Assembly (NCBI GenBank): GCA_030247885.1
Contig: JAPDRO010000008.1
Location: forward strand, 124,001 to 188,000
Length of the DNA stretch: 64,000 bases
DNA from: Taxawa tesnikishii (nom. ined.)
Taxonomy: Eukaryota > Ascomycota > Dothideomycetes > Dothideales
Direction of reading: 5' to 3'
The notes beneath the pieces were generated by a model. That model was not told where the DNA came from. It saw only the letters and a program-made list of their open reading frames with translations, and made no database searches. Shown here piece by piece: positions 56,541 through 60,131 of the stretch. Each line of letters starts with the position of its first letter. Positions within the stretch are counted from its first letter, which is position 1. The translations under genes and the position numbers were made by a program.

Positions 56541-57526
56541 ATGCCGCCTCCATCTTCCCGCTCCGTCTACACCAGCACCCAAATCCAGCAATACTACGAC
56601 CGCATCTCCCTCCCCGCCGTCCACCGTCATGAGCCGGGCGCCAAGTCGGCCTCCGTGGCCAATAGCACCGACGGCCTAGCCTACCTTTCCGCACTGCAAC
56701 GACACAACCTAACCTCGATCCCCTTTGAGAACCTCGACCTGCATTACTCCCCTCATCATACGATTTCTATCGATGTGGATCATTTGTTCGAAAAGATTGT
56801 GGCGAGGAAGGGTGGAAGGGGCGGTTACTGTATGGAGAACAACGCACTCTTCGGCACCGTCTTGCGCACGCTGGGATTCAACGTTACGAGTGTGGGCGCA
56901 CGCATCAACTCGGCCGTAGGCGCAAAACCCGGCAGCGGCAAGAGGGAGGAACTCACGTACAGCGGCTGGTCTCATATGGTCAACATCGTCACTCTCTCCT
57001 CCGGTGCGAAATACATGGTGGACGTTGGATTCGGGGCGGGGACCCACGCACCCACTGGCCCTCATCCACGACTCCCCGTCCTGAACGTAGCTCCCGAGCA
57101 GATGGTGCGGCTGCTACACGCGAGTATACCGGATGTTACGGATCCAGAGCAGAAGTTCTGGGTCTATGAGAAACAGAATACGAGCCAAGAGGAGTTCTGG
57201 CCGCAGTACTGTTTCACGCTTACTGAGTTCCTGCCGAGTGATTACAAGGTCATGAATCATTATACCAGCACGAGCAAGATGAGCTGGTTCACGTGGAGTG
57301 TCGTATGCGTTAAGATGCTGTTGGCTGAGAATCATGAGAGCATTGTTGGGGAGATCACTCTGTTCGACGGAAGCATCAAAAGAGGGTTTCGGGAAAGAGC
57401 GAACCATTGATGGAGATTAAGACTGAAGATGATAGGGTACAGGCGCTAGAGGAATATCTGGGTATTCGATTGAGCGAGGCAGAGAAGAATGGTATCAAGG
57501 GCACGGTGGCTGCGATCAAGGGATAA
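56541..57526 (+). CDS. arylamine N-acetyltransferase (NAT)
   Basis: Cytosolic enzyme that transfers an acyl group from acetyl- or malonyl-CoA to arylamines; fungal members can detoxify plant benzoxazolinones (family knowledge). Single exon. Catalytic triad visible: Cys in GRGGYCMENNALF, His in GWSHMVNIV, Asp in YMVDVGFGAG. Also SIPFENLDLHY near the N-terminus and FTWSVVCVKMLLAENHESIVGEITL toward the C-terminus. The frame runs to a stop at 57408-57410, but one extra base at the A/G runs 57378-57386 gives RVSGKSEPLMEIKTEDDRVQALEEYLGIRLSEAEKNGIKGTVAAIKG, the normal NAT C-terminus ending at the TAA 57524-57526. I therefore extend the gene to there. Full length about 328 residues, usual for fungal NATs. 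The substrate cannot be inferred from sequence. Confidence 0.88.
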
Positions 57527-58111
57527 GCAGCTGCGTGCATGTCTTAGCAAACAGAGACCGCTTAAAACCAAGGTGGTAAACACGGAACACAAGTGCAGTT
57601 CAATGACAAAGAACCGTGTAAAGGAAGTGGCAAACAGGAATCTACAATAACTGAGTCGGTTTGGCTTTCTGGGCCATAGAGTAACGCCATTGCATCGCAG
57701 CTTATGGCCTCGGAGCGCATGTCCTCCCTCAGATGCCGGTTGAGTACCATATGATTTTGCCAGCAGACTTCGGTTGTCTGTAACTAGTCCTCTATATCGG
57801 GATCGCGGTAAAGGACACTCACCTTTGAACCCGTCTTTCGTAAGAAGAGGGAGTGTTCTTCGACGTGCCTTGGAGATGATGAGCCGTCTGTGTTCACGTC
57901 ACGCACGAAGATTGAGCGGGATTGGAGTGGATAAGAAGGTAGCTGCATTTTGCAAGACGCTGGATGCTGTTCCTCATCGTACAACGCGTGGAAGGCACGT
58001 CCGAACCTGGCAAAGAAGTACGTCTCTTCTGTTTGGGGTGGAGCGACGGATTGGACACCAGAAAACTTCTTCTCCAGCATTTTGCCCAGGCAAAGAACTG
58101 ATGAAAAAGGA
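57527..58111. other. intergenic region
   Basis: Between the NAT gene and the U2 snRNA 3' end. Open frames on both strands at 57774-58215 are not genes; they overlap the U2 gene. Confidence 0.5.
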
Positions 58112-58351
58112 GGGTTCGCGTCAGCCCGAGGTAGTGCAATACGAGCGACACTGTGGTCGGAGCGGTAGGCAAGCCCAGAGCGCTCCAACCGAATTCCAAA
58201 AATAAGTATAATCATTGAATGTGACCGTAGTCACGTTTCAGAGATTAAACTGAAAAGAACAGATACTACACTTGATCTAAGCCAAAAGGCAACTGTAAAA
58301 CATTAGCAAATGCAGAGTGTAAGGGGAGATGGAGGGTACGCACAGAGAGCT
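58112..58351 (-). ncRNA. U2: U2 spliceosomal snRNA, with a candidate intron
   Basis: Pairs with intron branch sites in the spliceosome. On the minus strand, 58292 downward reads TTGCCTTTTGGCTTAGATCA, then AGTGTAGTATCTGTTC with the GUAGUA branch-recognition box, CAGTTTAATCTCTGAAAC (stem IIa region), an Sm site ATTTTTGG at about 58196-58203, a stem loop with GGAGCG...CGCTCC, and a terminal stem-loop IV, CTCGTATTGCACTACCTCG, matching the conserved U2 loop. Only the first nucleotides before TTGCC do not fit a normal U2 start; the expected CUCUCU is found 51 bases upstream (see the intron feature). Ends are approximate: 5' at the A of AGCTCTCT (58351), 3' near 58112. Transcribed toward the NAT gene; TATA-like sequence at 58401-58406. 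Confidence 0.95.
58293..58343 (-). other. putative spliceosomal intron inside U2 snRNA
   Basis: 51 nt, GTGCGT at the 5' end, GCTAATG branch-like site, TTTTACAG at the 3' end. Removing it joins CTCTCT (58344-58349) to TTGCCTTTTGGCTTAG (from 58292), giving CTCTCTTTGCCTTTTGGC, the conserved fungal U2 5' end. It also restores the UCU:AGA base pairs of stem I, which the unspliced sequence cannot form. Length and signals match the protein-gene introns of this window. Not proven without transcript data. Confidence 0.75.
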
Positions 58352-59006
58352 AAAGAAAAAAAGAGAGGAAGGGGGTTCGGAGAAGCGCGAGATTGGCCGC
58401 ATATATGTACAGCTGGGGTTGCGCACAAGCCACAGCGGTGAGCTTTCTGCCAGGATGATAGCGAGGTTCTACCGATAAAAAGTCGGGGATTGCAAAACCG
58501 ATCACGCATGTGGAGACGGGTTCATTCACCTCTTGACAATAGACTCACTAGTCATTTCTTACTCCAATGAAGCGAACAGGGAGTGAGGGATGAGTGAGGC
58601 CTGGTAGAAGGGTGAACGGGGAGTGATGAACAGGTGAGGTTGCACTGGTTGTTCCGCACATTGCTTGTCATTGACTTAGCAGTTTGTTGCTGTTGCGGAA
58701 TCATTTACTTCCGGACAATGGCTCCATTGAGAAGTTTGTTTGGACGCTGCTGCTCGTTGACGCAGCACATCATTCATTCCTCTTCCTATACGTGGCAGTC
58801 GTTCCGCTCTCATCTGGACTGGAGTAAAGACCATTCGGAATTCGGTTGGATCGTGTTCAAACATTTCCCAACATTCCATACGACTGTTCAAAATCCAACT
58901 TCAACGCCGAACCGTATGCAGGGGTATCAATGCACGTTTGTGTTCCATGAGGTCGTATGCCGTTTCGAAAACCTGTCGACCTCGCTTGCCTCTCGTCTCA
59001 GAAGTT
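58352..59006. other. U2 promoter region and intergenic sequence
   Basis: Upstream of U2 (minus strand): a pyrimidine tract next to the 5' end, a CCAAT at about 58392-58396 and ATATAT at 58401-58406, 50-55 bases from the U2 start, a plausible snRNA promoter spacing. The rest, to the STRAP 3' end, holds no recognised gene. Confidence 0.55.
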
Positions 59007-60131
59007 TCATCTCCAGAGACCGTACGGACCGCTGGTAAACTTCCACAATTTAATGGTTCCGTCCTCGCTGCCCGTAGCGTAGAGCTTGCCGTCTGGAGAG
59101 AAGGATGTAGTCCATATAGGTCCGTGGTGTCCCTTTCCGGTTTCTTTTCTAGTGTGTCAGTACAAGGTGTACGTAGAAGCGTACGGTAGAAGGTTTCGAA
59201 CGTACCAAGCTCCTGCTCCGTGTCAAAGTCCCAGACCTTGACCCAGGTGTCGCCAGGACTTCCAGTGACGAACCGTCTCTGCGATCCGTTTACCGCCACG
59301 CTCGCAATCTCCTGGTTCGTCTTGATACTCTTGATGAGCTGACCCGGCCGTCCACCGTCGAAGAAATAGATGCTTTTCCCGGCAGCTACGCTCAAGGTTC
59401 CCCAGGCGATCTGTCCAGTCCGTCATTGAGCTCGCACGAGCCAATCAGCCCATCCACATCATATGATGCGATGCTCGATCGCGAGCGCAGATCCCACCAC
59501 CTGATCTTCTTATCATCGCACGCCGTCGTCAGAATATTCGGATCCGCGGACCAGATAATACTCTTGATCGTCCCTCCATGCTCCCCCTGCCCGACCTCAT
59601 AGCACCCGGTCGCATCACCATTCGTCTGCGCCCCTCCATTGACCCCATACGCTGCCGTGTTCAGATTCCAGACCCGTAGTTTCTTCTCCATACCGCCAGA
59701 CGCAAATACAGTCGGTCTTTCTGCGCCAGGAAACGCGACTGCACGCACGATATGGTTGTGCTGCAGCGTGTGCAGCGTCTCTCCGGTGAAAGTATCCCAG
59801 ATCTTGGCGCTGAAGTCGGCGGAACCGGTCGCGGCGAGCGAGGCGCAGGAGGAGAGCCGCGCGGACCAGACGGCGCCTTTGTGCCCGACGAAGGTCCCGA
59901 TCCAGTCGCCCGTCAGCCCGTCTCGGAGCATGGGGTTGTTGTCTTTGCAGGCGGAGATTAGGTAGTATTGTGGTTGTGTGGAGCTGCTGTTGGGGGACAG
60001 GTGCGAGAAGGAAATGTGCGTGATGGGGCGCGAGTGGCCATGGCAGGTGAGGGGGACGACTTTGGTGGTGTCTGCGGGGTGGGTCAACGGATGGTCATGG
60101 TATAGGAGATCGAATACGCACCAGAGGTCAT
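59007..60131 (-). CDS. STRAP/Unrip-like WD40-repeat protein
   Basis: Seven-bladed WD40 protein resembling STRAP (Unrip), which in animals binds the SMN snRNP-assembly complex and also TGF-beta signalling components. Exons 60122-60131 (10 coding bases, MTSD), 59206-60071 and 59007-59148. Start [27 protein letters not shown]; then [39 protein letters not shown] (STRAP signature), [94 protein letters not shown] and, at the end, [38 protein letters not shown]. Two one-base breaks: near 59413-59416 (one extra C gives [12 protein letters not shown]) and at the T-run 59141-59143 (gives [13 protein letters not shown]). It could be mistaken for eIF3i; the [10 protein letters not shown] block favours STRAP. 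It sits beside the U2 gene. Confidence 0.9.

Follow-up and report, generated by a model that had tools for sequence, protein, structure and literature searches.

Predicted spliceosomal introns near the 5' end of the intact U2 snRNA genes found in a dothideomycete genome

The basidiomycete yeast Rhodotorula hasegawae reportedly has introns in its U1 and U5 snRNA genes, according to an account from 1996. For U2, the title of Takahashi et al. (1993, Mol Cell Biol), as cited in PMC2586383, announces an mRNA-type intron in the R. hasegawae gene, and to judge by that title the locus described here is similar in having a spliceosomal-type intron in a fungal U2 gene. It differs in that the host is a dothideomycete with four intron-bearing paralogues, one of them with shifted intron ends. 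As a U2 intron has been known since 1993, the kind is already known and ours is a further member of it. For U6, mRNA-type introns have been described in Schizosaccharomyces and other fungi (Tani & Ohshima 1989; Canzler 2016; splicing of S. pombe U6 in the sections consulted of PMC10484740). Like these, the U2 intron is short, of mRNA type and close to functionally central bases, in a genome whose U6 loci all have introns as well; unlike them, it divides the 5' strand both of U2/U6 helix II and of stem I, and U6 is normally a Pol III gene. For U3 snoRNA, introns near the 5' end occur in Pezizomycotina, with sliding noted in Dothideomycetes (Canzler 2017, PMC5832005, in the sections consulted). 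The U2 intron also lies near the 5' end, and the two U3 genes of this genome show the same 2-nt shift as its U2 genes, although the host of the U3 intron is a snoRNA outside the spliceosome. In its consulted sections the same paper states that, of the small structured RNAs, just U3 and U6 are known to have frequent interruptions. Among the literature matches listed we found none that describes an intron in an ascomycete U2 gene, which is a statement about those matches and not a claim of absence from print, and none of a U4 intron, the one match for 'introns in U4' concerning, as excerpted, a mitochondrial rDNA region. What appears to be new is a U2 intron in a distant lineage, in unusually complete form (all intact U2 genes and all U6 loci found), together with a U4 intron.

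The window, by which we mean the whole 64-kb stretch of DNA that was analysed, encodes an Rpn3 homologue that is 87% identical to that of Elsinoe fawcettii and 85% to that of Myriangium duriaei, the best named among 120 matches listed, and another protein that matches Aureobasidium, Phyllosticta and Cercospora at 30-35%. These matches point to a dothideomycete, nearest to Myriangiales among the named matches listed, and so bear out the ascomycete host that had been supposed when the DNA was read from sequence alone.

The minus strand of the window contains a U2 snRNA gene that matches the Rfam U2 model RF00004 at 135.3 bits (58303-58110, model positions 1-192; gathering score 46 bits), with a GUAGUA box, an Sm site and stems I-IV, and U2 is the sole Rfam family to reach its gathering score across the window. 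Because the match opens within the putative intron, the first model positions fall on bases of the intron, and of the three outer pairs of stem I one is flagged as non-standard in this unspliced alignment. For annotation, this means that Rfam alone gives a wrong 5' end for U2 genes with such introns. We place exon 1, AGCTCTCT, at 58344..58351 (cap-proximal, and 8 nt long if the RNA starts at the A), followed by a 51-nt GT...AG intron (GTGCGT...TTTTACAG) at 58293..58343 and by exon 2, which carries stems I-IV, at 58110..58292. Exon 2 begins at 58292 with TTGCCTTTTGGCTTAGATC, and its extent agrees both with RF00004 and with compensatory changes among the gene copies described below; within it we take the GUAGUA box to be 58264-58269 and the Sm site 58196-58203. 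The branch site GCTAATG lies at 58301..58307, with 58303 as the presumed branch A, some 10 nt upstream of the acceptor. Around the 5' end the minus strand therefore reads ...TTTAGCTCTCT/GTGCGTACCCTCC...GCATTTGCTAATGTTTTACAG/TTGCCTTTTGGC..., where slashes mark the intron ends. The sequence-only reading had proposed a 51-nt intron with precisely these ends, from 58293 to 58343 between exon ends 58344 and 58292, and the donor GTGCGT, the branch GCTAATG and the minus-strand U2 core were each found where it had put them.

In the 29.4-Mb genome at least five U2 loci were found with the covariance model, and a DNA search with exon 2 returned the same five; locus counts from this genome are lower bounds. 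Four of the loci are intact (L001 to L004, the last being the window copy), lie on four separate contigs and all have the intron. L001, L003 and L004 share the arrangement AGCTCTCT/GTRCGT...CAG/TTGCC, with introns of 58, 50 and 51 nt respectively. In L002, which reads AGCTCTCTTT, then a 54-nt intron that starts GTACGT and ends CTCAG, then GCC, both boundaries are displaced by 2 nt relative to the other three, and the joined product is unchanged. Removal of the intron thus yields one well-formed RNA from every copy: the joined 27-nt 5' end, AGCTCTCTTTGCCTTTTGGCTTAGATC, which includes the same 8 nt of exon 1, is identical in all four, despite the shift in L002, and this supports the original proposal that an intron interrupts U2 near its 5' end. 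Up to GACGCGAA the four joined RNAs are all 186 nt long and align without gaps. The four copies are mutually 82-86% identical, and their exon 2 sequences 92-93%. In the joined RNAs, 6 of the 55 predicted pairs show double changes that keep the pair, with one table cell broken or gapped; this count takes in L001 to L004 and leaves out the fifth locus. Equal length, gapless alignment and compensatory pair changes suggest that all four are constrained as U2.

The fifth locus, L005, is an intronless U2 copy that starts AGCTTCTCTGTGCC... and has the lowest covariance score (108 bits). Its branch-recognition box is mutated (GTATAGTG for GTGTAGTA), its Sm site is changed (ACTTGTCTTTTGAA), and at the junction it matches the joined product imperfectly, with one extra T and one T-to-G change. 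It is 81% identical to L001 and 74-76% identical to the other three; since L001 is its nearest relative, the intron was most likely lost from L005, possibly by way of an RNA that had already been spliced. About 16 kb from L001 lies a sixth piece, L033, an L001-like 3' fragment that retains the 3' hairpin. Neither the covariance-model search nor the exon 2 search found any other full-length U2 in the genome.

The splice signals are kept in all four intact copies: a GTGCGT or GTACGT donor, a CAG acceptor and a GCTAAT, GCTAAC or GCTGAC branch (GCTAAC, GCTGAC and GCTAAC in L001, L002 and L003). They agree with the fungal intron norms quoted in the consulted part of PMC5832005, namely GT, AG and an RCTRAY branch 6-36 nt from the acceptor, and are those of a U2-type intron. 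One protein gene of the window contains a 58-nt intron of the form GTACGC...TACTGAC...CAG. When the 120-nt stretch upstream of each copy was shuffled with dinucleotide composition preserved, the combination of TCTCT, GTRNGT at intron length, CTRAY and YAG appeared in none of 20,000 shuffles for any of the four copies, a result that is a rough guide only because the combination was defined after the copies had been seen. The recurrence of the arrangement in four of four intact copies is the stronger support for an intron. A self-splicing intron was also considered and rejected: a stretch of 51 nt is too short for a group I or group II intron, and in the region 57000-59500 no Rfam match other than U2, and so no group I or group II catalytic core, was found at E values up to 1.

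Joining the exons also affects the predicted structure. With the 3' end of the genome's own U6, the joined 5' end forms U2/U6 helix II at -13.3 kcal/mol, a value equalled or bettered by 4 of 2000 mononucleotide shuffles, as compared with unjoined values of -4.4 for the window copy, -3.9 for L003, -5.0 for L002, -14.0 for L001 and -10.5 for the degenerate L005. Stem I folds at -7.7 when joined, and at -4.4 (window), -5.1 (L001), -6.2 (L003) and -8.6 (L002) when not. In the window copy joining thus regains both stem I and the helix II strand, in line with the earlier suggestion that it restores stem I next to the U6-pairing region. Because L001 pairs well with U6 even when unjoined, and L002 forms a stem I as stable without joining as with it, these tests discriminate in some copies only, and they favour joining in most, not all, copies.

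Promoter spacing gives a further line of evidence. An ungapped scan, with the starts of the U1, U3, U4 and U6 genes assigned by eye, found the common upstream core CACCGCCTGGTCCAAGCG with at least 15 of 18 matching positions in 7 of these 12 genes, where it lies between -72 and -89 relative to the start; the other five (L006, L007, L015, L016 and L023) score 9-11 of 18 and are uninformative in an ungapped scan. Among the U2 genes, L003 has a core matching at 17 of 18 positions that lies at -73 from exon 1 and at -131 from exon 2, whereas L001 scores 12 of 18 (at -66), L002 10 and the window copy 9. By eye, the window copy has an snRNA-type upstream element, GGCAGAAAGCTCACCGCTGTGGCTTGTGCG (58422..58451, minus strand), that resembles the element upstream of the U1, U4, U6 and U3 genes. 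Its core part, 58422-58440, stands 89 nt before exon 1 and has one inserted base relative to CACCGCCTGG, which is why the ungapped script missed it. A TATA-like element, TACATATATG, also read by eye, lies about 50 nt before exon 1 at 58400..58409 on the same strand. The spacing of the L003 core to exon 1 equals that at the starts of other snRNA-type genes, which supports the intron reading.

We weighed these observations against a U2 RNA that simply starts just upstream of TTGCC, with AGCTCTCT as a promoter-proximal motif. Such a gene would account for the Rfam model stretching over the unspliced sequence at 135 bits, and it fits the pairing of unjoined L001 with U6 at -14.0 kcal/mol and the stable stem I that unjoined L002 retains; in addition, a first exon of 8 nt is very short, which counts against an intron. 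It does not explain, however, why donor, branch and acceptor are kept in all four copies within an otherwise diverged stretch, and the matching 2-nt displacement of both boundaries in L002 has no sensible explanation unless the two ends become joined. Without an intron, the L003 promoter core would also lie 131 nt, and not 73 nt, from the start. For comparison with other U2 genes, searches for the U2 loci of other fungi gave no matches among viral contigs and none in a first genome contig search, while a second genome contig search returned three eukaryotic U2 stretches that had strayed into records with a bacterial MAG label. An ordinary contiguous 5' end is seen in two of these (ATCGCTTCTCGGCC and ATACCTTTCTCGGCC), and the third starts too near a contig end to tell. 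On the splice signals, the L002 shift, the L003 spacing and the contiguous 5' ends elsewhere, we reject the uninterrupted gene as very improbable. We likewise reject, as extremely improbable, the idea of an intronless U2 as the working gene, with the intron-bearing copies as decayed paralogues. The sequence-only reading had itself named a second complete U2 gene, exposing the window copy as a decayed paralogue, as a finding that would count against it. An intronless U2-like locus does exist in L005, but this sole intronless copy found is itself degenerate, with its mutated box and Sm site, the lowest score and an identity of 74-81% against 82-86% among the other four; those four preserve U2 structure by compensatory changes, and the genome searches turned up no further full-length U2.

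The preferred reading, that the window holds one of four working U2 genes, each with a major-class intron of 50-58 nt after a first exon of 8-10 nt, is thus very probably correct. A narrower question is whether the L002 intron was inserted independently of the other three or is the same ancestral intron after sliding. The intron bodies are 60-76% identical between copies, compared with means of 0.50-0.52 and maxima of 0.58-0.63 in 200 shuffles per pair, and five of the six pairs exceed their shuffled maximum. Independent insertion could explain boundaries that are 2 nt apart and the L002-L004 identity of 0.61, which is within the shuffled range (maximum 0.63). Against this, the L002 intron exceeds the shuffled maximum both with L001, if barely (0.60 against 0.59), and with L003 (0.67 against 0.58), the same TT shift separates the two U3 introns of this genome, and the consulted text of PMC5832005 describes sliding of U3 introns in Dothideomycetes. 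We consider independent insertion unlikely; the intron most probably predates the gene duplication and later slid by 2 nt in L002 with no change to the product.

Other small RNA genes of this genome are interrupted too. All three U6 loci found (L006, L007 and L008) have an intron in the form CTGCACT/GTAAGC...CAG/AAGGATG, of 51, 55 and 56 nt. One of three U4 loci, L016 (G000:C19:370140-370273), has a 77-nt intron, GTAAGT...GCTAACATGCTCTAG, after 13 nt, just upstream of and overlapping the start of its Rfam match. Its joined form, with ATCTTGGTGCTCG before the intron and GGCATTACGCG after it, aligns colinearly with L014 and L015, which have no intron, and U4/U6 stem II in L016 is predicted at -17.6 kcal/mol joined and -12.3 unjoined, with -17.1 and -17.6 for the intronless copies. 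Both U3 genes found (L022 and L023) have introns, with boundaries that differ by 2 nt (TT) and a joined product that is identical there. We saw no interruption in the four U1 loci found (57-67 bits, under the 69.5-bit cut-off) or in the one U5 locus. This only U5 found, L013 (G000:C29:1237341-1237455), has an A+T-rich upstream flank and, by eye, lacks the common upstream element and 3' hairpin; a loop-plus-Sm pattern search of the genome found no second U5.

What can be read directly from the DNA is the gene, its splice signals, the fact that every intact copy found keeps them, and a joined product that is the same throughout. For expression we propose that Pol II would transcribe the gene from the common upstream element, which would act as an snRNA-type promoter, and that the RNA would begin at the A of AGCTCTCT or close to it. 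A pre-existing spliceosome would then remove the intron, the GUAGUA box of mature U2 pairing with the intron's CTRAY branch site. Splicing would join AGCUCUCU to UUGCC, 58344 to 58292, to give a U2 RNA that starts AGCUCUCUUUGCC, with a complete stem I and a newly formed strand for helix II, the pairing with the 3' end of U6. After splicing, the 3' end would be cleaved at the hairpin. Mature U2 would in this case derive only from spliced precursor.

No branch site of a major-class intron is recognised without U2, and since all intact U2 genes found appear to be intron-bearing, a spliceosome would already have to work before more U2 can be made. With every intact U2 gene and every U6 locus found interrupted, the organism seems to be without an unspliced fallback source, and if so its spliceosomes would be inherited and self-propagating. 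In three of the four copies the pairing of unspliced U2 with U6 at helix II is poor, so that the intron could act as a feedback control. That all the U2 and U6 supply and part of the U4 supply must pass through the spliceosome, and that the U2 intron is a feedback control on snRNP supply besides a tolerated relic, we regard as rather doubtful, and regulation by the U2 intron is speculation. The system offers natural tests on three points: whether splicing can be efficient when the first exon measures 8-10 nt; intron sliding, as one of the four paralogues has shifted ends and yet gives the same product; and the proposal that snRNA genes acquire introns through reverse splicing close to the active centre of the spliceosome.

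A common 3' hairpin (CTTTTTC.TCAG...CTGG.GAAGAAG) lies just after the U1, U2, U4 and U6 genes; in the window it occupies 58066..58109 on the minus strand, directly after U2, and is like those that RNase III (Pac1) cleaves after S. pombe snRNAs. Over 14 snRNA genes, 8 of its 17 consensus pairs show double-sided changes, and folding z-scores are -2.1 to -5.2 in seven of the eight hairpins tested (-0.4 in U6a). A plain pattern for its U2/U6 form occurs at 11 places in the 29.4 Mb, and one for its U1/U4 form at 3, as compared with none for the reversed control in each case. In S. pombe, according to the sections consulted of PMC8421224, Pac1 associates with U1, U2, U4 and U5, each closely followed by a predicted hairpin, and not with U6, so a hairpin at U6 is unexpected. 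All three U6 loci have a 3' hairpin of the U1/U2/U4 kind (weak in L006), and L008 also has the upstream element at 17 of 18 positions, which raises the question whether U6 here has Pol II-type transcription or 3' processing.

Similar elements flank some genes that we could not assign to a family. L034/L025 (G000:C31:1304204-1304816) and L036 (G000:C32:190718) are homologous RNA genes, 93% identical over 73 nt, and a DNA search returned just these two; L025 has no Rfam match at E up to 0.5, and L034 and L036 have none at E up to 2. Both have the common 3' hairpin, Sm-like sites and intron-like stretches, and L034/L025 also has the snRNA upstream element. For L028 (G000:C6:499014) the sole Rfam match is mir-207, far under the cut-off, and for L035 (G000:C32:181184) there is none. 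Each of these two genes has the 3' hairpin and, by eye, the common upstream element, and L028 contains an intron-like stretch, GTATGT...TTGCTGAC...CCAG.
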